A stretch of 64,000 bases of DNA from Periconia sp. R9002. Lineage: Eukaryota; Ascomycota; Dothideomycetes; Pleosporales; Periconiaceae. The position numbers and the translations under genes are program-made. Positions 3,943 through 54,992 of this stretch are shown piece by piece; within the stretch, counting starts at the first letter, position 1, and every line of letters starts with the position of its first letter. Below the pieces are notes generated by a model. That model made no database searches. It saw only the letters and a list, made by a program, of their open reading frames with translations, and was not told the DNA's origin. Location of the stretch: assembly GCA_023627715.1 (NCBI GenBank), contig JAMAHW010000057.1:104612-168611 (forward strand), given 5' to 3'.

Positions 3943-4864
3943 AGTGGGTGGTAGGTGCCTAGGTAGGTGGTGGGGGAATGAAGGCGGGAGGAATAGAGAG
4001 GTATGTATGCCTCGATGAAAGAAGGGAAGCGGTTCTCTATTAGTAATTCCTTAAATAATGGCCGTCCGTCACTTGTTTTGCATGATGCACTTGGAATTAC
4101 GCTTTCGGATAGGCAAGCAGCTAGGTAATTATTTAGTTTTCACTCACGTGGGAGCATGAAGTTCCTAACAGGCATCTACCTGTAGGCAGACGTCAAATCT
4201 TTGCCAAGCGTTCTTTGGTTCAACATGCTGCGGAGAACAAGAACAATTGATTGCAGTGGTACATAGCTATTTATGTGTAGGCGAATATGTATACATACCT
4301 TTCTCTGAGGTTGCCTGACGAATGCGGAGGCGGCTAACCCCCCATGAATCATAGCATTTACACACATCGATACGGACATGTGTCGTTGGCGTGAAGACTG
4401 TAATTTCAGGTAGTGGTCGCCTAGCTCCATCTTCGATTTATTTATTTATGTACTATGTTATGCAACAGGAGTGACTACATGTACAAGTAAATGTCCGCCG
4501 CCGCCGCCTAAAACTGTGTGTCTGTCTCCTCCGACCGCCCGACAGCTGCCGCCTCACACGCCATAGCCCCATCGAACATCACCTCCATCCCACCTACACC
4601 CACCCACTCCCACCTAACCACACCTCCACCCTCACCCTGGCGCAGCCCTCCCTCCCCTCTGCCAGTTCCGGCGCCTGCCATTGCTGCTTGTCGCCGTCGC
4701 TGCTGCTGCCGCCTCCCTTCATTCTAACTCCACATAGCTCTTACATCCATCCATCCCTCTAGTGGCGGAGAGAATACCTGCATCTCATCCCCCGCCTCGC
4801 CTCGTCACCCACCCTCCCGCCGTCGCCCTTCTCCATCGCCATCGCCATCCACCGTGTCCACACA
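3943..4864. promoter_or_regulatory. Divergent promoter/5' UTR region of RTR1 and BBC1
   Basis: 922 bp between two divergently transcribed housekeeping genes. The right half (about 4500-4864) is strongly C/T-rich on the plus strand (repeated ccacc, cctcc, tccatcc), the usual composition of fungal core promoters and 5' UTRs, and ends in accgtgtccacaca directly before the BBC1 ATG. No clear TATA box is seen. An 84-codon minus frame at 4176-4430 has no support. Confidence 0.55.
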
Positions 4865-7800
4865 ATGCCTCACTTCAAGGTCAAGGCCGTCTACAAGTAC
4901 GACTCACCCCACGAGGACGATCTCAGTTTCAGTGAGGGTCAAATTATCACTGTAACCGAGGTCGAGGATGACGATTGGTACGTGGGCGAATACATTGACG
5001 ACTCGGGCACCAAGCACGACGGTCTCTTCCCCCAGAACTTTGTCGAAAAATATGAGCCTGAGCTGCCCGCCCGTCCCAACCGCGCATCCAGGCACAAGCC
5101 ATTGGAGCAGTTGGCCCCCCAGCCAGCACCCCCGACCCCCGAAGTTCCCCAGCAAGAACCCGCGCCGGCTCCTCCAGCTCAGGAGGACGAGGCACCGAAG
5201 CCCCCCCAGGTGCCTCCACCCGTCGAGATACCTCAGAGCCCTTCTCCCCAGGTCACCTCTCCCACCTCGCCAATCTCGGCCCGCAGCGGAGCTCTAAAAT
5301 CTCCAGAGATTCCACAGGAGCCTCCCGCTGCTCCCAAGCCTGCTGCCCCAGAGCCAGCATCGGCTGCGCCTGCTAAGAAGGCCCCTCCCCCGGTAGCTGC
5401 GAAAAACAGCGCTTTTTTGAACCGCATTGCTGCCTTTAATGCGCCCGCGGCCGCCCCCATACAACCGTTCAAACCTGGTGGTCAGCCTAGTACTTTTGTG
5501 AAGAAACCTTTCGTGGCTCCTCCTCCTAGTCGCAATGCGTATGTCCCACCCCCTCGTGAAGCTCCGCAGGTCAAGACATATCGCCGAGATGAAGATCCCG
5601 AGGTCGCAGAACGTCAAGCGCAAGATCAAGAAAGTGCAGAACGTGCGGGGCTTACTGGCAATTCCACCACCAATGACGGAGACGGGGAAGAGCAGGCACC
5701 CACAGTCAGTTTGAAGGAGCGTATTGCACGACTCCAAAAAGAGCAACAGGAGCAAGCCGCTCGCGCCGCCGCATTGGCAAAAGAGAAGCCGAAGCGACCT
5801 CCCCCGAAAAAACGCGCAGAGTCTCACGAAGCTCGCGGAGAGGAAGGCGAAGCTGCGTTAGACAGATCTGTGACATCTGATTCACGGGAGCGTACTTCTG
5901 CTGAGCATGCTCGACCACCTCGATCTGCTCATGGTCTCCAGTCACCTGACCAAACCAACCGCGATCTTATGAGCGATGCCAACGACGCCGACCAATCGGG
6001 CGCTGGTGAAACCGAAGATGCGGATGGGACATCAACTAGTGTCGAAGATGACGATGAGCGCGCAAAACAAAAGTCTTTGCCACGCGCGCCTGCTGCACCT
6101 TCCAAAGAACCTGATGTGGGTGACGAGCAAGACGTCGAGGAGGAAGAGGACGAAGAAGAGGAGGACGAAGAGGCCGCAGAAGCTCGGCGAAAACTGGAGC
6201 TTCGAGAGCGTATGGCTAGAATCGGAGGTGGATATGGCATGCCTGGCATGTTCGGTGGAGGTTTGCCCATGGGTGTCCCACCACCCAAGAAGAAGAAGCC
6301 CGAAAAGAAATCTACGGCCGATAGCGAGGAGTATTCTATGCCTCAGCGAGTACCTATGTTCGGATTGCCCGGCGTAAGGAGTCCCGAGGTCGAGAACAAG
6401 CAATTAGTTGTCGAAAAGGAGGACGAAGAATCTCACGGAGCAATCTCGCAGTCTCGCCCGGCCGATGAAGTGCCTGATGTGGAGGATGTAGCTCCTCCAT
6501 CGTTGCAGAAGACCCCCACAGCTGAGCGCTCGCCGCCGTTTTCTCCAGAAAGTAAGCACCATCTCATTAAAAATCTTATTCCTAGGAAGCCAATCCATGG
6601 CTCCTTCATTCGTGAGACTATTGGCGCATTTCGGTCATCATCTTCTGCGAACGTGTCAAAAACGTATGTTACGTTTGACGGGGACACAGAATATGTCATG
6701 ACTGTTTGTGTGTCTAGTATGTCAAGCAGTGGTGATATGAGCGAGTTTACATCCCCGAAAGTTACGCTGACATGAATGGTAGAGCGTCCAGTGCCTCCAC
6801 CGGTCCCCACGGCTGACCGTCCGGCACCCCCTGTTCCCTCAGCCTGTAAGTTGCAACAACCAGATAATGATCTTCTCTGTGTAATAACCCTCGGCCAGCT
6901 CGCCCGGTCCCTTCAGTACCCGTTCGGTCTCCTAGTCCTGGTTCAGAATCAGGCGACGAGTTGACGGACGCTCAGGCCCCTGAGTCTGCAACCTCACCCA
7001 AAACACCCTCAGCTCTACCTCCTCTCAAAAATCGGGATTCGTATTTAGCATCAGACGAGATGTCTGGGGATTCGCCAGATAAGCGTGCCATGCCCCCCAT
7101 ACCGTTGGCCAGCCCTACCTTATCTCCAACAACCACTCGTCCACCACCACCTCCACCTCCCTTTGCAGCGCCTCCATCCCGTGCTCCAACATCGGAAAAC
7201 GTGTCCAAGAAAGTCGATCGTGAAGGCGAAACCGACTACGAAGGCGACTACGACACCGATATTGCTTCTGGTGCAACTCACAAGGACGCGTTGAAATCGC
7301 ACGTCCGGGATTCAAGCATGGAAGATAGTATGACAGCAGACGAAGCTCCGATCCGGTCTCCAATAACGCCTTCAGCCCCTCCACCATTACCTCCGTCCGT
7401 ACCCCGAGCTGTACCGCCACCACCCCCGCAGCAGCCACCAAGCAGAGCATCGCTAGACGCTCCAAGAGGCGCCCCTCCTCCGCCCCCAGTACCTCATCCC
7501 ACGCGAGATGTACAGGAGGATGACGATGAGTATGATCCATACCGGTACACAGGGCCTCCGCGTGGAGCACCGCCTGCTCCCAAGGCGATACCCCCGCCTC
7601 CGCAGAACCACCCTCCGCCACCACAGGCCCGCCCACCACCTCCTGCTCTCCCACCAATGCCGCCTTCTATTCCTCCTGCTCCCCAGCAGCAGTCCCGCGA
7701 TTATTCAGACGACGACGAGGATGACCTGTACTCTGCTCCTCCACCACGAAAGTCTCATGATAGGCCTCCGCCTCCTCCACCTCAGGCTCCACCGCCGCCA

Positions 7801-13220: not shown

Positions 13221-13583
13221 CAGACAGAGGATCGTGTGTATACCACACACGATCCTCTGTCTGATATTCTCCTCGGCGTCGGATCGACCCTAGAATAGAT
13301 TTGTCAACAGACGCGAGTAAGCATTTTGGAGATGAACGTACCTGGCCGGGGGCCGATCCGACAACTGAACATTAGCCAGGCAGAGGATGTACGCATTTTG
13401 AAAGCCGCATACAATCCTCTGCCTGATATTCTTCTCGGCATCGGACCTAAATAGGTTTGTCAGCAACCGCATGTAACCATTGTGGTGGAGATGAACATAC
13501 CTGGCCAGGGTCCAACCCGATATAACCATCACTCAGGCAGAGGATGTATGTGGCATGATACCACATACACGCTTCTGCGTGTG
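13221..13583 (-). repeat. 157-bp tandem unit with exon-intron structure and hairpin
   Basis: Three palindromic blocks start at 13221, 13377 and 13534 (spacing 156 and 157 bp). The first is near-perfect: CAGACAGAGGATCGTGTGT faces its exact reverse complement across a 5-bp loop (13221-13263). The next two (13377-13425, 13534-13583) are diverged. On the minus strand each spacer looks like a spliceosomal intron: intron A 13447..13500 (GCCAG|GTATGT ... GCTGAC ... TTTAG) and intron B 13290..13341 (GCCAG|GTACGT ... TTGAC ... TCTAG). The exon between them, 13342..13446, is 105 nt and open in one frame (SDAEKNIRQRIVCGFQNAYI, then LCLANVQLSDRPPA). The copy next to the ABC fragment reads ENIRQRIVCGIHTILCLV in frame into it. 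So a whole exon-intron unit has been tandemly duplicated. The exon sequence is not recognised. Confidence 0.6.
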
Positions 13584-30554: not shown

Positions 30555-30670
30555 TTATCCGTGAGCCAAGAGAAGCGCGGCAACATCAAGCTCATCCCGA
30601 CGACGACCGCTGAAGCTGGATGTAGGTTCATGTGAGAAGGAGGGATCACGATCAAGCTCACTCGGTGGAC

Positions 30671-30767
30671 GAAACTGTACCACCAATCGAGAACTCAAAG
30701 TCCGCATACTTCTTCCAGTACCCAAAGAACAGAGGAAACTTCGCCAAAAAGCAGTCGAACACGAACC
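30671..30767 (-). pseudogene. Prp39 N-terminal fragment
   Basis: The minus strand reads FVFDCFLAKFPLFFGYWKKY then ADFEFSIGGT, closely matching the N-terminal HAT-repeat region of the U1 snRNP protein Prp39 (xDxFLxKFPLxxGYWKKYAxxE). It joins the SF3B1 fragment upstream with a frame change at the shared ggttcg, and runs into unrecognised sequence downstream (ELDRDPSFSHEP, ELDVAALLLAHG, stop). It is a piece of about 30 codons, not a gene. Confidence 0.75.
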
Positions 30768-31003
30768 AAGATACTCATACAGTGCTTGGGCAAGCTGGAT
30801 GAGCTGAGGGTCTTCGTCGCACTTCTCCACCACAAGCCGTAATTCGTGAAATTAGGTCAGCAGCTTGTTGGCGAACAGTAGCCGATTTGTTGTTTAGTCT
30901 AGCAAGAACAGTAGCCACAATTTGTGTAAGGTATGGCTTCGCTCGTTCTCTAAGAGCGTTGATAATGGTGATAAAACCATCAATTGCGACGGGATCTTCG
31001 AGG
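30765..31003 (-). pseudogene. SF3B1/Hsh155 HEAT-repeat fragment, frameshifted
   Basis: The minus strand encodes [40 protein letters not shown] and [13 protein letters not shown], then after a one-base frame change [23 protein letters not shown]. This is the well-conserved HEAT-repeat segment of U2 snRNP SF3B1 ([15 protein letters not shown] is nearly invariant). Only about 80 of some 1200 residues are present, with a frameshift. The 5' end is fused to an RBM39-like piece and the 3' end to a Prp39 piece. Confidence 0.85.
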
Positions 31004-31024
31004 GGTTTTGGGGCACACCGCACG

Positions 31025-31078
31025 TGCCGAGATTTGCTGAACCAAGACTGTTCGTTTGTCCCGATCATCTTCAGGGAC
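31025..31078 (-). pseudogene. RBM39/Rsd1-like RRM1 fragment
   Basis: Eighteen codons read [19 protein letters not shown], matching the start of the first RRM of RBM39/CAPER-type splicing factors (ERDxRTVFVQQLAARL). The frame then changes into the SF3B1 piece. The fragment is short, but its charged lead and VQQ-AR core are characteristic. Confidence 0.6.
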
Positions 31079-31154
31079 GGACGGGGCGGAGTCGCGAATC
31101 ACCAGCGCCTCCTACCATTCCCACAGCTCGCCATATTTCGTGCTCAAGGCACGA

Positions 31155-31173
31155 TCGGAAGTTGATGTTACAA
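31155..31173. repeat. Shared 19-bp motif, copy 1
   Basis: tcggaagttgatgttacaa. The same 19 bases recur at 31872 and 32210. In this copy the flanks differ from those of the other two apart from a diverged cgtgctcaaggcacga on one side. Confidence 0.8.
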
Positions 31174-31427
31174 TCTGGATGAGCACAGTTTGCAATGTTC
31201 AGACCTTGTAGGCGGACTGCGTTTTGGGCTAGGGTGATGATGAACTTGTTCGTTATGGAGTCCAAGATGGTTGACATTGTTGTCCATTTTCGCTTTCAGT
31301 AGTCTGGCTTCGTTCATGAGGCATCGTGTTTAGATCCAGCTCACTAACGTCTTTATTTTCGGAGCTGATGTGTTCGGACTCCTCAGTCGAGGTCACGTCC
31401 ACGGTGTCGGCGGTATCAGCAAAAAGT

Positions 31428-31823
31428 CTACTTGTACGGGCTTTTGCTGGGACGTCGCTGATTGAAGTTGCGTCCGTTGAGGCCCTGGAGGGCATTCTCG
31501 CCACCAGTGACGGATTCGAACTTGACATATACGTCACCCTCAGAGTTGGGATCGGCAGCAACGTGAACGAATTTGCCGTACTTTTTGTCGCATTTAAGTT
31601 TGATCTTTACGTCGAGTGGCTTGACCCAGTCGGGCGAGGGTGCCTCCGGAGAAGTGTTCACTTCATGAGGGAAAACAAAGGTGCTGCCCTCCTGAATTCC
31701 CGAGCGGAACATGGAGTCCTTCTGGGCGATCTTCTTGCCAACACCCTTCGAGTTCCTCGTCTTCCAGCTATTGACTCCCTTCTCAAGAGCTTTCTTGTTG
31801 GGAATATTGCGGCGACGGGGCAA
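31428..31823 (-). pseudogene. Chimeric open frame: SPF30-like piece joined to RBM39-like UHM piece
   Basis: 131 open codons. The first half, NKKALEKGVNSWKTRNSKGV then GKKIAQKDSMFRSG, resembles the C-terminal basic region of the Smn-related splicing factor SPF30 (KKxSMFRxP). The second half, KCDKKYGKFVHVAADPNSEG, DVYVKFESVTGGENALQGLN, GRNFNQR, matches the C-terminal U2AF-homology motif of RBM39/Rsd1 (YGKVxHIxxDPxSxGDIYxKF, GGENALxGLNGRxF). The two are joined in one frame through an unplaced linker (IQEGSTFVFPHEVNTSPEAP). The UHM is cut before its last strand. An expressed fusion cannot be excluded, but the surroundings argue for a shuffled fragment. Confidence 0.6.
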
Positions 31824-31839
31824 CGTCGTTGACCTTCCG

Positions 31840-31950
31840 CACGAGATCCATCTCCTTCCGATGTGCTCGGGTCGGAAGTTGATGTTACAAATGAAATGCG
31901 AGTCTGATTAAGTCATTCTTACAAATGATTTTGATGGCGAGCATACGTTC
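31840..31950 (-). repeat. Copy A of a 110-bp dispersed duplication
   Basis: This segment matches 32178-32288 at an offset of 338 bp: both contain cc-atctccttc, gtgctc, the 19-bp motif tcggaagttgatgttacaa (31872-31890 here), aagtcattc and gat-ttgatggc. Differences fall largely at spaced positions, as in diverged coding sequence. The minus strand reads LAIKIICKNDLIRL here and VAIKIIRTNDLMRT in the other copy. Confidence 0.75.
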
Positions 31951-32000
31951 GTACAGCTTGCATTGCCAGTCTATATCCGTTGTTGTCTTCTTTAAGAAGA

Positions 32001-32189
32001 TCACTTAGCAGCCTGGGCTGGGAAATTATCAAGTAGATGCTTAGTGGACTCTGCAGTGAATTTGTCGTTGCCCAAGCCTACACCGAAAACACAGCAAAGA
32101 TGGCTTTTGTAGTCGAAGGCGCCAAGTAAACGGCTGCTATGCCGTTCATTGCTCGAATCGGCTTTGATGACCTTCTGGGCGAAACCCAT
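32001..32189 (-). pseudogene. Unrecognised protein fragment
   Basis: The minus strand encodes AQKVIKADSSNERHSSRLLG, AFDYKSHLCCVFGVGLGNDK and FTAESTKHLLDNFPAQAAK before a stop. The composition is protein-like, but I do not recognise the family. It lies between the two copies of the 110-bp duplication and is on the same strand as the named fragments. Confidence 0.4.
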
Positions 32190-32288
32190 CTCCTTCTAAC
32201 GTGCTCAGGTCGGAAGTTGATGTTACAAAAGACTCGCTGTTCTCATCAAGTCATTCGTACGAATGATCTTGATGGCAACCAAGGTCGA
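32178..32288 (-). repeat. Copy B of the 110-bp dispersed duplication
   Basis: This is the partner of 31840-31950; the 19-bp motif is at 32210-32228. Upstream on the minus strand (about 32290-32460) is an acidic segment reading MARSKKMNLSTLPAAKVEPA, then in another frame EFDMFDLDDDDDDEDEENID, NENPKVVVLDENKIGNSTL. That looks like the N-terminus of an unidentified protein with a frameshift. Confidence 0.7.
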
Positions 32289-32510
32289 ATTGCCTATCTT
32301 ATTCTCGTCAAGCACGACAACCTTCGGATTTTCGTTCAAATCGTCGTCAATATTCTCCTCATCCTCATCGTCGTCATCGTCGTCAAGATCAAACATGTCG
32401 AATTCCTTTTTTGGCAGGTTCTACTTTAGCGGCAGGCAAAGTAGAGAGGTTCATCTTCTTTGAACGTGCCATGTGCTATATAATCAGCGCAATTCATTGA
32501 GAGGAAAAGG

Positions 32511-32775
32511 TTATCTATGGCGCAGTAGATGTGTGTCGGCGAGAAAGACCTGGATAGTGTACCACATGGAGTTGTAACTAAGCCAATAGAAAGTCTGTGC
32601 TGCAGCATAAATGTGTACGCTATTGCACACAGCTCTCAGGACGAGACCGATTTCTAAGAGAATGACCGAGAGAGCAAAACCGTGAGGGCGACCAAAGATG
32701 TCAAGGACCTTGGCAACTGGAAGCTTGAGGACTCCACCCATGACGCCGGGCTAGACATTGACGTACGCCAACAAG
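32511..32775 (-). pseudogene. Siderophore-iron MFS transporter fragment 1
   Basis: The minus strand reads HSLLAYVNV, an in-frame stop, then [60 protein letters not shown] and MWYTIQVFLADTHLLRHR. This is the TM2-TM4 region of Sit1/MirB-type siderophore transporters (GGVxKLPxAKxxDIxGRPxGFALxV, YAAAQxFYWxGYN, ADTSSLxxR). It is truncated on both sides and carries a premature stop. Confidence 0.85.
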
Positions 32776-32804
32776 GAATGCTGGCACGGCGAGTGAACTT
32801 GTCC

Positions 32805-33014
32805 ATCTCAGATTTCGAGTGATGGCTCGGTAGTGGTCAATGGTGAAGGTGCGTTCGCCATCGTTGCCAATCTCCGTGACAGTGTAAGAGGGGGTCTTCT
32901 GGAGGGACTCGATAATAGAATCCATAACATCGACGAAGACGACCTCATAGCCGGAGTTGTGAAGAAACTGGGCTACAAAGCCACGACCGATGTTGCCGCC
33001 TCCAAAGTGAACAG
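32805..33014 (-). pseudogene. Mannitol-1-phosphate 5-dehydrogenase N-terminal fragment
   Basis: The minus strand reads [66 protein letters not shown]. This is the NAD-binding N-terminus of fungal mannitol-1-phosphate dehydrogenase, including the GGGNIGRGF dinucleotide-binding loop. A one-base frame change follows (SKSEMDK continues in another frame), then it is cut and joined directly to siderophore-transporter sequence. Only about 70 of roughly 390 residues are present. Confidence 0.88.
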
Positions 33015-33224
33015 CAGATGCGCAAATGCGCAAGAATATAGTGGATGATTGTCCTAGGGGACCACACAATAACGTGCCGTCGAAGTGGACGGGGACATCG
33101 GCATCAAGTTTTTCCTCGAGACGGGTTCAGTTCAAGTGAATTGCTGGCTGGTATATGGGCACAAAAATACAGCTCGCTCGCAGGCAGAGCAAAGCAAAGT
33201 TTTCCTCTTTTCCGGTGAAGGATA

Positions 33225-33390
33225 ACCAACGCTCGTACAAGAAGAGGATGCGGTGGTAATCACCCTGCTTCTCTTCAAAATCGAGATATTTGCGCCAATT
33301 CTCCAGGTCTGATTCCTCCAGTTCTTCGACGTGGAAGTACGCACGTTTGATGTTGTGTTCGTAATCCCGGCGGACCTGTACCGACTGCTG
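33225..33390 (-). pseudogene. Prp39 HAT-repeat fragment
   Basis: The minus strand reads RRDYEHNIKRAYFHVEELEE, SDLENWRKYLDFEEKQGDYH, RILFLYER. This matches the central HAT repeats of Prp39 (FExxIxRPYFHVxxLxxxxLxNWxxYLDFE...RIxxLYERCL). It ends abruptly after LYER and continues in unrelated sequence. Confidence 0.75.
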
Positions 33391-33523
33391 TAATTGACCA
33401 TGAAGTTGAAATTGAAATTGATCCTCACAGAGTAGTACTACCCTGGGTATCGACACAGGTAGGGGTACACTTGGTAACGTCTCTGTATTTGACCATATAT
33501 CTCGTAATAGTGTTGGTCAAGCT

Positions 33524-33784
33524 TCAGTCGCAATACAAGAATGTAGTGTATGATGACCCAGGTAGCCACTCAAGAGCGGGCTGTCCAAATGGCCATACAC
33601 GCAGGGGGAGGAGAAGGAAGAGTAGCCCGCTAGTAACGAGAAACACTCCTGCGGCATCAAACTCAATCATGTAGTGGCGGATCGACTGCAATATGGTGCG
33701 GTTGCTTCGGACGGGAGGAGTGAGACCCTGAGCCCGGGCTGCGAATCGGTAGTTGAAGAGGAATAGGATAAAGAGCGGCATCAT
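33524..33784 (-). pseudogene. Siderophore-iron MFS transporter fragment 2
   Basis: Eighty-six codons read MMPLFILFLFNYRFAARAQG, LTPPVRSNRTILQSIRHYMI, EFDAAGVFLVTSGLLFLLLP and on to a stop. This corresponds to the loop and TM7 region of Sit1-like transporters (SGRTxxQSxxxYxxEFDxxGxxLxxxGLxLFLLPF). It covers a later part of the protein than fragment 1 but lies upstream of it on the same strand, so the order is scrambled. The cap around WPFGQPALEWLPGSSYTTFL looks like another piece. Confidence 0.75.
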
Positions 33785-34194
33785 TCTTCGCGACTATCTC
33801 GTTGAGTTCGTTCTTGATGTCGCGAAGAAAGTGGCAATTGGGGGCGAGCGACGTATGAAGAAGACTTCGGGTCAAACACCGGCGAAGGAAGAGATGGAAC
33901 GTGGTCAATCTCATCTTCCTCTTGTAAGGTGTTTTCGGGGATGGAGGTGAGGGACGTATAAGATTGGACAGGTGTTAATTCGACGGATGAGCATGCTTGA
34001 GGCTGAATCTCGAGCGATCAACAGGAAACGTCTCCAGGGATCTATCCGCCGAAAGGTCTTTGTCGAAATCGGTAGGGACCATTGCTTTGGTCATCTCGAC
34101 GTGCTTTATGCAACGCTTCGACTTCCTTACCAATCGATGAAACGAAAAATTGACCAACCAATATTCCATCAATAACCCACCGATAATCCACTTT

Positions 34195-34345
34195 AACACC
34201 GATCATGACGATCTCGGTTTCGGTAGTCACGGTGGCGGCCGCAGCCACCTGCATCCAATATTCCATCAAGAATCCCCTTTAAACCGGATCATGGCGATCA
34301 CGGTTTCGGTAGTCACGATGGCGGTCGTAACCATCTGCATCATGG
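34195..34345. repeat. 86-bp imperfect tandem duplication
   Basis: gatcat-gacgat-cggtttcggtagtcac-gatggcggccg occurs at 34201-34241 and again at 34287-34328, with similar flanks (tattccatcaa... cac-ttaaac). One minus-strand frame of the right copy reads GYDRHRDYRNRDRHDP, an Arg/Asp-rich peptide continuing the Prp39-like frame upstream. Confidence 0.6.
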
Positions 34346-34386
34346 TTGTAACTAATATAACCATTGATATCTTTATCCAGTAGTAG

Positions 34387-34575
34387 GAACTCCTCAGCTG
34401 CATCTTTACTATCACGGGTCATCAAATACTCCATATAGAAGTTGGTTAGTTCTTTAAATGCCTCTGGTGAAAAGCGGTCCTTTCCACGTGACAGCTCGTA
34501 AACGTCCTTGACGCGGCTATGGGCCTCCTCTTGATCAATTGCCGGTTGAGCTACCTCGAACTCGCGCTGGCAGCC
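34387..34575 (-). pseudogene. Prp39-like C-terminal fragment
   Basis: The minus strand reads CQREFEVAQPAIDQEEAHSR, VKDVYELSRGKDRFSPEAFK, ELTNFYMEYLMTRDSKDAAE, EFLLLDKDINGY. This is similar to the region near the Prp39 C-terminus (DxxxAHxRVKDxYE...xELxxYYxxYLxxRGxKDAAxEYxxLD). Identity is less certain than for the other Prp39 pieces. Confidence 0.5.
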
Positions 34576-35029
34576 GGATATACAAGGCCAAGACGAGCCC
34601 AGAAACTATTAGCAGCCAACGTTCCCCGGCTGTCCTACCCTTGTTAAAATGTAGTTATATGCAGACAAGGTTGTCCACGGGTATCCTACTGTAACTCGTA
34701 AGATGTGACCAGCAAGTCCCCCATAGAACATACCGAAGCTCTCTCTCCTGGGTTTAAAGCATATCCTCCGTGCCGCAAGGTATTTTACACCACCATGACA
34801 TAAAGGCCGGTCCGATCTTGCACAGAGGTTCGAGTTTTTGGTTCAAGTCAGCAATGTTGCTTTCGCACTCAGGCTTGAGTTCCAAGACTTCATCCTTCGC
34901 GTCATATTCGATGAGTTGGTTGAGAGACTCAAGAATATAGTAAATGATTGTTATGGCCGATCATGGCCGCAAGCCAAACGACGATCAACATCACAAAGCT
35001 TTCCATGTTGAAAAGCTTTTGTAAGTCAT

Positions 35030-35130
35030 TTGTCGCTGAAAGAGGGGCAGTGATTGTAGTTGCGTCCGTTGAGATCCTGCAGGACTTTCTCACCAACATT
35101 GAGAGAGTTGAACTTGACTTAAGGGTATCC
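35030..35130 (-). pseudogene. Second, degraded RBM39-like UHM fragment
   Basis: The minus strand reads VKFNSLNVGEKVLQDLNGRN then YNHCP, clearly related to the VKFESVTGGENALQGLNGRN then FNQRRP of the fragment at about 31480-31640. DNA similarity (tcaagttc... ctcaacggacgcaact) supports a shared origin. Confidence 0.55.
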
Positions 35131-35345
35131 TATAGCAAGGCTCAAGGTTTCGGTGTCGATGTCTTTTTTCAGGTATTCGAGTATCTGACAGCCCTTTTTA
35201 GGTCGGAGGTCAACGCGGATCCTCGTCATGTCGCCTATTGGCTGTTCGCTACGGGCATCTTTGATGATGTGCTTCCTCTAGAACCCGACCTTGCCATGCA
35301 AATAATGATTATGTGTATAACGTTCTTGAGGAGTTGCTCGGTGGT

Positions 35346-35563
35346 GTCGCGCTTGTCGATGTTGTGCTTCTCAACTCACTCGTTGGTGATCTCGGCGCGG
35401 GTATCATAGTTTTGAAATACAACCCGTCCGAATGATCGATTTAATGCTGCCATAGTGAAGTTGTGCTTGGGCTGCAGAGCTTTGAGGATGCTAAAGAAGT
35501 CATGAACAGCAGTCTAGCACTTGTCGATGTTGTACTTCTCGTGCAATTCGTTGGTGAGCTCGA
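35346..35563 (-). repeat. Duplicated ~45-bp segment in the patchwork
   Basis: gcttgtcgatgttgtgcttc and following bases (35350-35393) recur in diverged form at 35520-35563 (acttgtcgatgttgtacttc), 170 bp away. On the minus strand both encode E(I/L)TNE..EK(H/Y)NIDK. The parent protein is not recognised. Confidence 0.6.
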
Positions 35564-35609
35564 TGCAGGGCAGAGATCTATCAACTACGCAGCACATAGA
35601 CGATATTGC

Positions 35610-36060
35610 CTACGTAGAAGCTCTTTTATCGCAGTTGCAACGGCAATACAAACAAGCAAGGTTGCTTCTAAATTGATACTGCTCTCTTTGCCTCGAAGGG
35701 GAGCTCGCGAAGCTAGAGATGACTGAAACGCGATGTCGGATGCCAGGTGCCCCCAAGGCAGGCAAGGTGGGGTTACCATTGCCGTCGCTCTCGACCCTGG
35801 ATCCCATGGTGCAGGTGAGATGGTAGTTTGACTGGCACTGTAAATATGTAAGTGTCTGCGTGTGGCGAGGTAGCAGGCAAGCTATCAGTGCCGTACGGGC
35901 AGCTGATGAAAGCTCTGCTCGGTCTGTGAGGTGTACTTACAAACGGCAGCAACGCCCATCGAGGAGATGGCCAAACGAAGCTCAAAAACGTGTTCAAAGA
36001 ATCTGCAAAGCATATCAAGGGCTCTGAATAGGAGCAATGAGGCGGGTGATGGTGTCGTGA
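35610..36060 (-). other. Left-over fragments at the right edge of the patchwork
   Basis: The minus strand shows a possible intron from GTAAGT (35940) to TTTACAG (about 35842), flanked by short protein-like segments (FELRLAISSMGVAAV before, MGSRVESDGNGNPTLPALGA after). On the plus strand KLKNVFKESAKHIKGSE then a stop also reads like a protein tail. None could be assigned. This stretch may be the boundary where mosaic DNA meets the promoter of the next gene. Confidence 0.3.
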
Positions 36061-54189: not shown

Positions 54190-54992
54190 TCATCCGCTCT
54201 CCGTCTTGACCGCTATGCTCTTATACTCCCCGTGAAGGATATCGAGGAGCTTGCGGAGCGTATCGGAATTGCTGCTTCGCCGCCTCATCAACTTCCCGTC
54301 GTCCTCTTCGCCCTCGGCATCGTCGTCATCTTGCGTTAGCAGTTCAATGGTTTTTCGGAGCTTCTCGTAGGCGGCGTTGAGTTCCGAGTGTGAGGTTTCG
54401 AGCTTGTTATATCGTTCCGTGAGGGCGGAGAGCTGGACTTCTAGGTCGCGGGCGTGCTTCTCCTTGCGCTCGCGGAATGCTCGTTGTGCTGCTCTGTTCT
54501 GGGCTCGTCTCCTCTGCTGTTTGTTAGTGTTTGCGTTTGAGCGGAATGCTGCGATAAAATACGTACTCCTGAAGTTGTGTGCTGGCGGTCTGCGGCTCCG
54601 GATTGGGCTACTTGACCGTACACCTGGTCGAGCTGCTGGGGAAGTGGTGGAGGACTGCAGTAGGAAGGCGTGTCATGATCTGAGCCGAATTCGGGAGGGG
54701 TCATTGGTATTGGGTAGCTGCCGAAGTGCATCGGCTCGCTGGAAACTTGGGGGTAGTATTCCTGTGGCATCTGTGCGGGAAACTGATCGTAGGTGGAAGA
54801 AACCTTTCGGCTGTTTAGTATTCAACCTTTTCGTCATAAGAATGTCGGAAAACGTACCGGTGAGCCACTGAGGCTGGGGACTTTGGAAAGATCAGGAGGA
54901 AGTTCGTAGATGGCTGACTGATGTGAGGGAGGAGGTGGGGGGATGTAGGCATTGTTCTGGCCCATCCAGTAGTCGAACGATTGAGAATCCAT
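54190..54992 (-). CDS. AP-1-like bZIP transcription factor, three exons
   Basis: Exons on the minus strand, 54992..54858, 54803..54567 and 54516..54190, all phase 0, give 232 residues. Introns are 54 and 50 bp with GTACGT donors. The N-terminus is MDSQSFDYWMGQNNAYIPPP. The middle is Pro/Gln/Ser-rich (MTPPEFGSDHDTPSYCSPPP). Exon 3 opens with the basic region QRRRAQNRAAQRAFRERKEK (from residue 125). The spacing RAQNRAAQRAFRERK contains the fungal Yap/Pap1 signature NxxAQxxFR, which sets these proteins apart from Gcn4-type factors. A leucine zipper follows (LEVQLSALTERYNKLETSHS, ELNAAYEKLRKTIELL). An acidic tail and KLLDILHGEYKSIAVKTESG end the protein. It lacks the long C-terminal cysteine-rich domain of Yap1, so oxidant-sensing by that route is unlikely. 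It should bind DNA as a dimer in the nucleus; targets are unknown. Confidence 0.88.

Follow-up and report, generated by a model that had tools for sequence, protein, structure and literature searches.

What process could have gathered short pieces of many unrelated genes, all in one orientation, into a few kilobases of a fungal genome? The question is raised by a 64,000-nt stretch of DNA from Periconia sp. R9002 (the window, on contig C57), in which a patchwork of conserved-gene fragments had been predicted at positions 30555 to 36060 from the letters alone.

Composition of the mosaic

Genome searches establish that the mosaic is real and larger than first noted, with 32 pieces of 11 genes (32 to 252 nt each) covering 3887 of the 5001 bases between positions 30569 and 35569. 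All 11 donor genes are found elsewhere within the same 42.9-Mb genome. Every gene named in the original prediction was confirmed, comprising PRP39, SF3B1, an RBM39-like gene, an SPF30-like gene, a siderophore-type MFS transporter and mannitol-1-phosphate dehydrogenase, and five overlooked donors were added: PRP4 kinase, a HAD hydrolase and three open frames that have no Pfam name, called C57b (C57:245.7 kb), C6g (C6:593 kb) and C30a (C30:380.7 kb). Splicing genes account for five of the 11 donors (SF3B1, PRP39, RBM39, SPF30 and PRP4 kinase). At the right end of the predicted extent, positions 35570 to 36060 contain no donor match exceeding those of shuffled sequences.

Searches of the genome with three 2-kb slices of the region recovered 28 of the 32 pieces (E values of 4e-12 to 4e-86 for 25 pieces, and of 5e-7, 2e-6 and 8e-5 for three weaker ones). 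The other four (32084–32195, 34200–34238, 34287–34333 and 35451–35569) were located by local alignment to the donor loci. With the same settings, donor loci were hit 36 times from the mosaic versus once from the other 57.6 kb of the window, and the single control, 3.4 kb containing an ordinary gene, had no match but itself. Piece and donor are 70 to 96% identical, not approximately 100%. The features are as follows, with percentages giving identity to the donor.

30569–30662, minus, C57b piece, 90%
30677–30763, minus, PRP39 piece, first exon, 90%
30765–31007, minus, SF3B1 piece, 88%
31020–31078, minus, RBM39-like piece, exon 1, 88%
31106–31209, minus, C30a piece, 79%
31289–31414, minus, C57b piece, 94%
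31455–31631, minus, RBM39-like third-RRM piece, 91%; splits C57b pieces that are nearly contiguous in the donor
31633–31687, minus, C57b piece, 91%
31683–31822, minus, SPF30/SMNDC1-like piece, 86%
31826–31857, minus, PRP4 kinase piece, 94%
31830–31943 and 32168–32281, duplicate within the mosaic, 80% between the two copies
31858–31934, minus, short bits of C30a and PRP4 kinase, within the left duplicate copy
31935–32004, minus, PRP4 kinase piece, 89%
32003–32081, minus, RBM39-like exon-3 piece, 91%; same segment in the C11 mosaic
32084–32195, minus, PRP4 kinase piece, 70% (old)
32196–32230, minus, short bit of C30a
32231–32306, minus, PRP4 kinase piece, 86%
32302–32448, minus, PRP4 kinase piece, 81%
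32533–32784, minus, MFS (siderophore-type) transporter piece, 83%; 36 of 42 mismatches at third positions
32798–33015, minus, mannitol-1-phosphate dehydrogenase piece, 93%
33031–33052, minus, motif D6 (22 nt), 15 nt 5′ (sense) of the mannitol dehydrogenase piece
33105–33213, minus, PRP39 piece, 76%
33224–33401, minus, PRP39 piece, 92%
33402–33482, no strand, SINE-like repeat inserted in a PRP39 piece; 14-bp duplication 33388–33401/33483–33496, 13 of 14 identical
33483–33532, minus, PRP39 piece, 84%
33536–33557, minus, diverged copy of motif D6, 3 nt 5′ of the PRP39 piece
33603–33782, minus, MFS transporter piece, 93%; overlapping segment in the C12 mosaic
33857–34011, minus, C57b piece, 90%
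34015–34090, minus, C57b piece, 83%
34200–34238, minus, RBM39-like exon-1 piece, 92%; in one copy of an 86-bp tandem duplicate (34170–34341)
34287–34333, minus, RBM39-like exon-1 piece, 87%; in the other copy of that duplicate
34341–34562, minus, PRP39 piece, 88%
34566–34817, minus, piece from 3′ of the RBM39-like stop codon, 85%
34818–34924, minus, SPF30-like piece, 85%; starts within ~10 nt of a donor exon start
34930–34951, minus, motif D6, 5 nt 5′ of the SPF30 piece
35051–35121, minus, RBM39-like third-RRM piece, second copy, 77% (old)
35136–35275, minus, C6g piece, 96%
35319–35401, minus, HAD hydrolase piece, 84%
35451–35569, minus, HAD hydrolase piece, second copy, 71% with a gap

Alignment against the donor frames places all 32 pieces in a single transcriptional sense, that of the window minus strand. 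Successive pieces are in direct contact at 10 of 31 joints (from a 5-nt overlap to a 3-nt gap), and gaps of 7 to 126 nt occupy the others. Donor introns are few, 31 of the 32 pieces come from within the donor open frame that was used, and the C57 pieces are uninformative as to whether the templates were spliced or unspliced. Reading frames agree at 11 of 29 joints, close to the 9.7 expected by chance, and thus no frame is kept and a chimeric protein-coding gene is rejected. Stops and frameshifts do occur in the pieces, and the earlier description of a site where genic pieces were repeatedly stitched together, rather than a normal pseudogene or tandem duplication, is upheld. The SINE-like copy at 33402–33482 looks like a separate insertion.

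Further mosaics and the source of their pieces

A same-genome search for donors and similar mosaics, as had been proposed, mapped the donor loci and revealed at least two further mosaics, on contigs C12 (470–475 kb) and C11 (255–257 kb), that are built likewise from overlapping donors and are each of a single sense. RBM39 and C6g are common to C57 and C11, while RBM39, SF3B1, MFS and HAD are common to C57 and C12. Exact 21-mers shared with donor loci run in the same sense in 378 of 378 cases for C57 (10 of the 11 donors contribute, SPF30 none), 104 of 104 for C12 (four donors) and 67 of 67 for C11 (two donors), with none of 549 reversed over the three mosaics. Among matches between the mosaic loci, no donor-donor joint is held in common. 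The C12 MFS piece reaches 14 nt further into its donor than the C57 piece, and the overlapping RBM39 pieces measure 231 nt in C11 versus 79 nt in C57. Our tentative view is that a pool restricted to some 13 genes, including five splicing genes, supplied at least three non-coding mosaics. Motif D6 is present in the C57 and C12 mosaics; its interpretation as a spliced leader or intron end found no support.

One intron appears to be retained in the C11 mosaic. An intron-like stretch, apparently complete, precedes RBM39 exon 2 (alignment score of 31, shuffle maximum of 24), and the stretch before the exon-3 piece scores 18, at the 95% level of shuffles. This apparent intron would mean that mature mRNA was not the C11 template, and that pre-mRNA or DNA must be assumed. 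The idea that every piece starts at an intron branch point, taken from two C11 RBM39 pieces, was dropped as a rule because piece starts in the window fall within exons, and the C11 starts are explained by divergence of the intron upstream.

The divergence of the pieces from their donors was sorted by codon position. Mismatches at first, second and third positions number 97/1214, 60/1216 and 293/1210 in C57 (8.0, 4.9 and 24.2%), 22/299, 12/299 and 64/297 in C12, and 14/185, 11/187 and 39/184 in C11. The pooled share of mismatches at third positions is 0.65 over the three mosaics (bootstrap 0.59–0.70), whereas simulated copying and decay from a resident gene gives mean shares of 0.43 to 0.45 and a maximum of 0.51. 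Neutral decay of resident-gene copies, as simulated, thus falls far short of the observed third-position excess. Two mosaics also share non-resident states at 4 of 79 sites in RBM39 and 7 of 76 in MFS; the HAD segment common to C57 and C12 has such states at 0 of 58 sites, much of that alignment being flank. The third-position divergence and the shared non-resident states suggest that the pieces were sampled from a restricted pool of diverged homologues. Judged by sequence, these sources look like formerly constrained genes that are absent from this assembly, whose pieces later decayed with no kept frame. The common pool of at least three loci, the non-resident-like source and the absence of a kept frame go beyond the original prediction.

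When mosaic residues were compared with homologues in search of a source lineage, no source was found and most differences resembled decay. For PRP39, the mosaic residue occurs in 0 of 18 homologues at 16 of 23 amino acid differences, as in plain decay, and at 2 of 23 the mosaic, but not the resident gene, has the majority state of the 18 homologues. Second-position divergence is near 20% in 32084–32195 and 35051–35121 and near zero in others; piece ages thus differ, which argues against a single event. Identity to the resident gene is high for some pieces (C12 HAD, 98%; C6g, 96%; C12 C114g, 95%), and 30569–30662 and C30a have no third-position excess. The two C57 MFS pieces differ from each other in third-position mismatches (36/84 versus 9/60, p = 0.0005).

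Template switching and its rivals

The best explanation, to which we give a probability of roughly 40%, is that the mosaics were built by template switching, many times over, on pre-mRNAs either inside a related lineage or derived from one. Short sense-strand copies of a restricted gene pool would have been joined as a polymerase moved from one RNA template to another, probably during LINE-type reverse transcription of nuclear pre-mRNAs. We infer joining on RNA because RNA templates impose a single sense on every piece. A polymerase that switched away and back could produce the collinear C57b and PRP4 kinase pieces that are interrupted by other genes. The templates may have come from a lineage approximately 17 to 20% diverged from the resident genes at synonymous sites, in which case the mosaics arose inside a related fungus, or were copied from its transcripts or those of a lost second gene set, and would since have decayed by very roughly 4 to 5% per site. 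SINE-like copies flanked by duplications point to past activity of LINE-type machinery in this genome. Chimeric retrocopying by template switching, one of the mechanisms originally offered, stays possible because all pieces share one sense, although its mature-mRNA version conflicts with the apparent C11 intron. Against template switching, neither a flanking duplication nor a poly(A) tail was identified for any whole mosaic. The unequal ages, the pieces nearly matching the resident gene or lacking a third-position excess, the HAD segment with no shared non-resident site, the contrast between the two C57 MFS pieces and the decay-like PRP39 differences also weigh against this explanation. A repeat search (minimum 16 nt) found none linking the outer ends of the mosaic, whose true positions are uncertain, and neither a template-switching enzyme nor a source species was identified. 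A search for PRP39 in viral contigs found nothing.

A close rival, and a possible one, starts from genomic DNA. A diverged gene set, whether introgressed, of hybrid origin or since lost, would have been broken up and its fragments pieced together again at a small number of sites through end joining or microhomology-mediated replication, with the single sense left by selection, in that antisense pieces silence essential genes, or by the original arrangement. The apparent intron retained in C11, the piece from downstream of the RBM39 stop codon, the close joints with short overlaps and the same kind of non-resident source in three mosaics are all consistent with re-joined DNA. However, end joining should yield both orientations, yet no 21-mer is reversed, and all but one of the C57 pieces fall within donor open frames, although the donors have few introns. 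It is unlikely that all the loci descend from a single old mosaic or gene array that duplication and rearrangement spread around, with different parts kept at each locus. Donors, non-resident states and motif D6 would then be common to loci as observed, but inter-locus matches contain no common two-donor joint, and overlapping pieces overrun each other in C12 MFS and C11 RBM39. Ordinary retro-pseudogene fragments of resident genes under neutral decay would show unkept frames, stops, frameshifts and pieces as close as the 98% C12 HAD piece; the third-position share, above the simulated maximum, and the concentration of many pieces from the same few genes at few sites make this reading improbable.

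We see very little chance that the locus acts in trans through antisense or small RNA, with a predicted plus-strand transcript that would be antisense to some dozen genes, five with roles in splicing. Uniform orientation, the reuse of the same donors through mostly different pieces at three loci and the exact donor matches of the 378 C57 21-mers would suit such a role, but perfect 21-mers would target the cell's own genes, and the pieces are decaying rather than maintained. The best RNA family match in 28 to 38 kb scores 18.2 bits, relative to a gathering score of 45. Pack-MULE and Pack-TIR elements contain captured gene sequence, and DNA-transposon capture (Pack-type, Helitron or other), as first proposed, would resemble the many genic pieces collected here at one place. 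This origin is nonetheless highly improbable. No terminal inverted repeat rises above shuffles (longest candidate 13 nt, versus 13 to 17 nt in 20 shuffles), and no hairpin-CTRR end lies at the edges; the one candidate is interior to a piece, and seven equal-length stretches elsewhere in the window have 0 to 4. Least credible is an assembly chimera of present-day genes, because identities are only 70 to 96% and a SINE-like insertion with a 14-bp duplication lies inside; at least three loci are also involved.

Relation to known systems

In Magnaporthe, LINE-made chimeric retrogenes (MINE, and the tripartite WEIRD/Mg-SINE/MGL) join two to three RNAs in a process ascribed to template switching, and are described as carrying LINE or SINE parts and flanking 10- to 20-bp duplications (PMC2104539). 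The mosaics resemble these retrogenes in that copies of different genes are fused directly, in the same sense and in a fungal host, and this genome too has a SINE-like family with duplicated flanks. They differ in that the C57 mosaic has 32 pieces from 11 genes, no LINE part was seen, one mosaic has an apparent intron and the source looks non-resident. The intron-like stretch in C11 also departs from the spliced templates of a LINE-mediated chimeric retrogene. Fungal Helitron capture (PMC4289320) likewise collects gene sequence at one locus, but the mosaic edges have no hairpin-CTRR end. Pack-MULE/Pack-TIR elements (PMC8277862) similarly hold captured gene sequence in one element, but the mosaic has no terminal inverted repeats. 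Our literature search found no paper on such mosaics, though one may have been published.

Should a single sense and a splicing-rich, restricted pool also hold in more genomes, they would point to a pathway that repeatedly writes RNA into a fungal genome. Such writing, if true, would involve many joints per locus, beyond the two- to three-part retrogenes described in PMC2104539. The synonymous signature would make the mosaics fossils of hybridisation or transfer, keeping coding sequence of a lineage absent from the assembly. As a long shot, RNA-templated writing might draw on a restricted, mainly splicing-factor transcript pool of a related lineage (a hyphal fusion partner or hybrid), such that foreign sense pieces accumulate at few loci over time and transcription of the other strand would give a heritable antisense record against those genes. 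A truncated SPF30 model in Periconia macrospinosa (DM02DRAFT_650516) has a 67-aa SPF30 piece followed by frame-shifted SPF30, fused to repeated other sequence. In comparison with the mosaics this protein record has one recognised donor, and it could be an ordinary pseudogene.

Composition of the C57 mosaic

The window spans positions 104612–168611 of contig C57. Genome searches combined with realignment to donor loci resolve window positions 30569–35569 into a patchwork of 32 pieces, 32 to 252 nt long (median 109), which match 11 donor genes elsewhere in the same genome (267 contigs, 42,939,567 bases) and cover 3887 of 5001 bases. Searches with three 2-kb slices yielded 28 of the pieces, and the remaining four came from realignment. 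A sensitive search of the gaps between pieces identified additional, smaller bits, among which those of C30a and PRP4 kinase at 31858–31934 and of C30a at 32196–32230 score above every shuffle. Three intervals in or beside the mosaic (34091–34199, 34925–35050 and 35570–36060) gave no donor matches above shuffles, and these are perhaps pieces of further donors. At the same settings, 36 donor-locus matches fall in the mosaic versus one in the remaining 57.6 kb of the window, and a single 3.4-kb control, which carries an ordinary gene of the Mrp51 family, matched only itself in the genome. The mosaic on this contig (C57) is a real, unusual structure, a new form among gene-fragment mosaics or chimeric retrocopies, and probably has no function. 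At least two similar mosaics lie on contigs C12 and C11.

Donor genes and the basis of their identification
SF3B1: Pfam PF08920
RBM39-like: RBM39 linker, PF15519
PRP39: PF23241
MFS, mannitol dehydrogenase and HAD hydrolase: Pfam
PRP4 kinase: PRP4 homologues lead the PDB matches
SPF30: the name survival-of-motor-neuron-related splicing factor 30 given to some homologues; Pfam Tudor matches weak
C57b, C6g and C30a (labeled by contig): no Pfam match; gene status from open frames
C114g and C30b (labeled by contig): two extra donors, in the C12 mosaic only

Donor intactness was judged solely from open frames. The nearest homologues, which mark the genome as that of a pleosporalean fungus, are from Periconia digitata for PRP39 (73%) and from P. 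macrospinosa for MFS (75%) and SPF30 (81%). Splicing genes make up five of the 13 donors, a share with a chance of ~1e-6 to 3e-5 given an assumed background of 1.5 to 3% of genes and a category picked after the data were seen.

At ten of the 31 successive joints, neighboring pieces overlap by up to 5 nt or are at most 3 nt apart, and eight of these joints connect different donors; the others have gaps of 7 to 126 nt. Pieces from C57b donor positions 4473–4527, 4535–4660 and 4685–4778 are collinear and almost contiguous in the donor, with pieces of other donors between them in the mosaic; PRP4 kinase donor pieces 4887–4404 (142 nt missing) and 4382–4313 likewise enclose an RBM39 piece. The reading frame is the same at 11 of 29 successive joints (9.7 by chance). 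One composite joint is itself duplicated (31830–31943 and 32168–32281, 80%), and mosaic building therefore continued over time. The mosaic has no TIR, and neither edge has a Helitron end. Elsewhere, window positions 13243–13548 hold an adjoining 150-bp direct duplicate that is 76% identical.

Related loci, introns and a recurrent motif

The genome was queried with five of the 13 donors. RBM39 identified the mosaics on C57, C11 and C12; C6g those on C57 and C11; SF3B1 those on C57 and C12; and PRP39 that on C57 alone. MFS matched C57, two pieces at C12:471 kb and, as a fourth locus, C12:545.9 kb. Because the search scores best candidates only, the mosaic count is a lower bound. The C12 mosaic contains SF3B1, HAD, MFS (two), RBM39, C114g (two) and C30b pieces, and the C11 mosaic two RBM39 pieces and one C6g piece. 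C11 also has a weak match to PRP4 kinase over 65 nt (69%), which scores 31.0 bits, between the shuffle 99% level of 29.2 and the shuffle maximum of 32.8. At C12:545500–546300 (locus L078, 1–801), a 106-nt MFS piece lies beside what looks by eye like a ~90-nt direct repeat in three copies, within 800 bases.

When the C11 and C12 loci themselves served as queries, further matches fell at C9:502.8 kb and C13:480.6 kb; at C30:354.7, C6:611.8–612.2 and C107:7.5 kb, which resemble copies of a single dispersed repeat; and in a short dispersed repeat with copies on eleven other contigs. Near the C11 mosaic, short stretches at 4275–4340 and 6567–6716 of its locus (L062) match many other contigs and are probably dispersed repeats. 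Window positions 54455–54504 (50 nt) match, at 86%, a site on C68 that lies ~2.5 kb upstream of SPF30, and this may also be a dispersed repeat.

In C11, a stretch before RBM39 exon 2 aligns to the resident intron (score 31 versus a shuffle maximum of 24) and, by our own reading of its splice sites, would be a complete intron. The exon-3 piece opens in ~20 nt of matching intron sequence; further upstream, the intron alignment score of 18 equals the shuffle 95% level.

A motif termed D6 precedes several pieces.

Locations of D6
Window 33031–33052, 33536–33557 and 34930–34951: D6, 22 nt, C57 mosaic
C12 locus (L071) 1682–1703 and 1795–1816: diverged D6, C12 mosaic

In C57 it lies 3 to 15 nt 5′ of pieces from three donors (SPF30, PRP39 and mannitol dehydrogenase); the diverged copies lie 12 to 24 nt 5′ of the two C114g pieces in C12. 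Allowing ≤3 mismatches, the genome holds 12 matches, four of them in the C57 and C12 mosaics, and two for the reversed control. D6-like places on C60 (901 bases) and C52 (601 bases) carry no donor piece.

Source of the pieces

Mismatches to resident donors at codon positions 1, 2 and 3 number 97/1214, 60/1216 and 293/1210 for C57 (31 pieces; the one omitted derives from downstream of a stop codon and has no frame), 22/299, 12/299 and 64/297 for C12 (seven pieces; second C114g piece omitted), and 14/185, 11/187 and 39/184 for C11 (three pieces), the C12:545-kb piece being left out. We simulated, on C57 codons, resident genes being copied, with the copy decaying neutrally and the gene evolving under constraint, to 9 to 12% divergence (six settings, 40 runs each). 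The observed pooled third-position share is 0.65 (bootstrap 0.59–0.70) versus simulated means of 0.43 to 0.45. Because it lies above the simulated maximum of 0.51, most divergence seems to have arisen in homologues distinct from the resident genes, while those homologues were still constrained coding sequence. Subtracting second-position decay and a matching gene share leaves a third-position remainder that we estimate at ~17 to 20%.

Non-resident states common to two mosaics occur at 4/79 sites in RBM39 (C57 and C11) and 7/76 in MFS (C57 and C12). The C12 MFS piece reaches beyond that of C57, as expected for separate sampling from one source. The HAD segment (C57 and C12), whose alignment is largely flank, shares 0/58 such sites. 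Several observations run counter to a non-resident source, however: identity to resident sequence reaches 98% for C12 HAD, 96% for C6g and 95% for C12 C114g; piece 30569–30662 and the C30a pieces lack a third-position excess; and the two MFS pieces of C57 are strongly unlike each other (p = 0.0005). Among 23 PRP39 amino-acid differences compared with 18 homologues (one donor residue counted twice at a duplicated target site), the mosaic has the majority state and the resident gene is derived at two. At 16, none of the 18 homologues carries the mosaic residue, which suggests that the mosaic has decayed. The 11 MFS differences, compared with eight homologues, point in the same direction or are uninformative.

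Single sense and the mechanism of assembly

All 32 C57 pieces lie in donor sense on the window minus strand, and exact 21-mers agree in sense with donor loci in 378/378 (C57), 104/104 (C12) and 67/67 (C11) cases, contributed by 10, four and two donors, respectively, the other donors sharing no 21-mer. Counted by donor, the agreement is 11/11 (probability 0.001), with the sense of donors lacking Pfam names set by their open frames. The C57 mosaic also contains a SINE-like copy (33402–33482, 81 bp, 14-bp duplicated flank) from a family with at least 37 matches (40 of 319 first-look candidates scored for the 2-kb query). Sampling of 24 copies showed a (TGAAAT)-type tail at one end and a variable opposite end, with flank duplications recognizable by eye in several; this family suggests LINE-type machinery. 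Nuclear retention of splicing-factor transcripts might account for the recurrence of splicing genes.

We tentatively favor repeated template switching on pre-mRNAs as the maker of the mosaics (probability about 0.4), because RNA templates would force one sense on all pieces, LINE-type machinery is suggested, and retrogenes of two or three parts in a fungus have been proposed to arise by template switching (PMC2104539). Patchwork assembly at the DNA level, to which that single-sense constraint is not intrinsic, is a close second and might well account for the mosaics instead. As for related species, the terms 'pseudogene', 'gene fragments' and 'chimeric' are absent from the P. macrospinosa genome paper (PMC5910433). 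One protein record from that species, DM02DRAFT_650516 (P0277), hints that the phenomenon extends beyond this genome: it reads as 67 aa of SPF30, then frame-shifted SPF30, then repeated other sequence, and the species also has a full-length SPF30 model (P0194).
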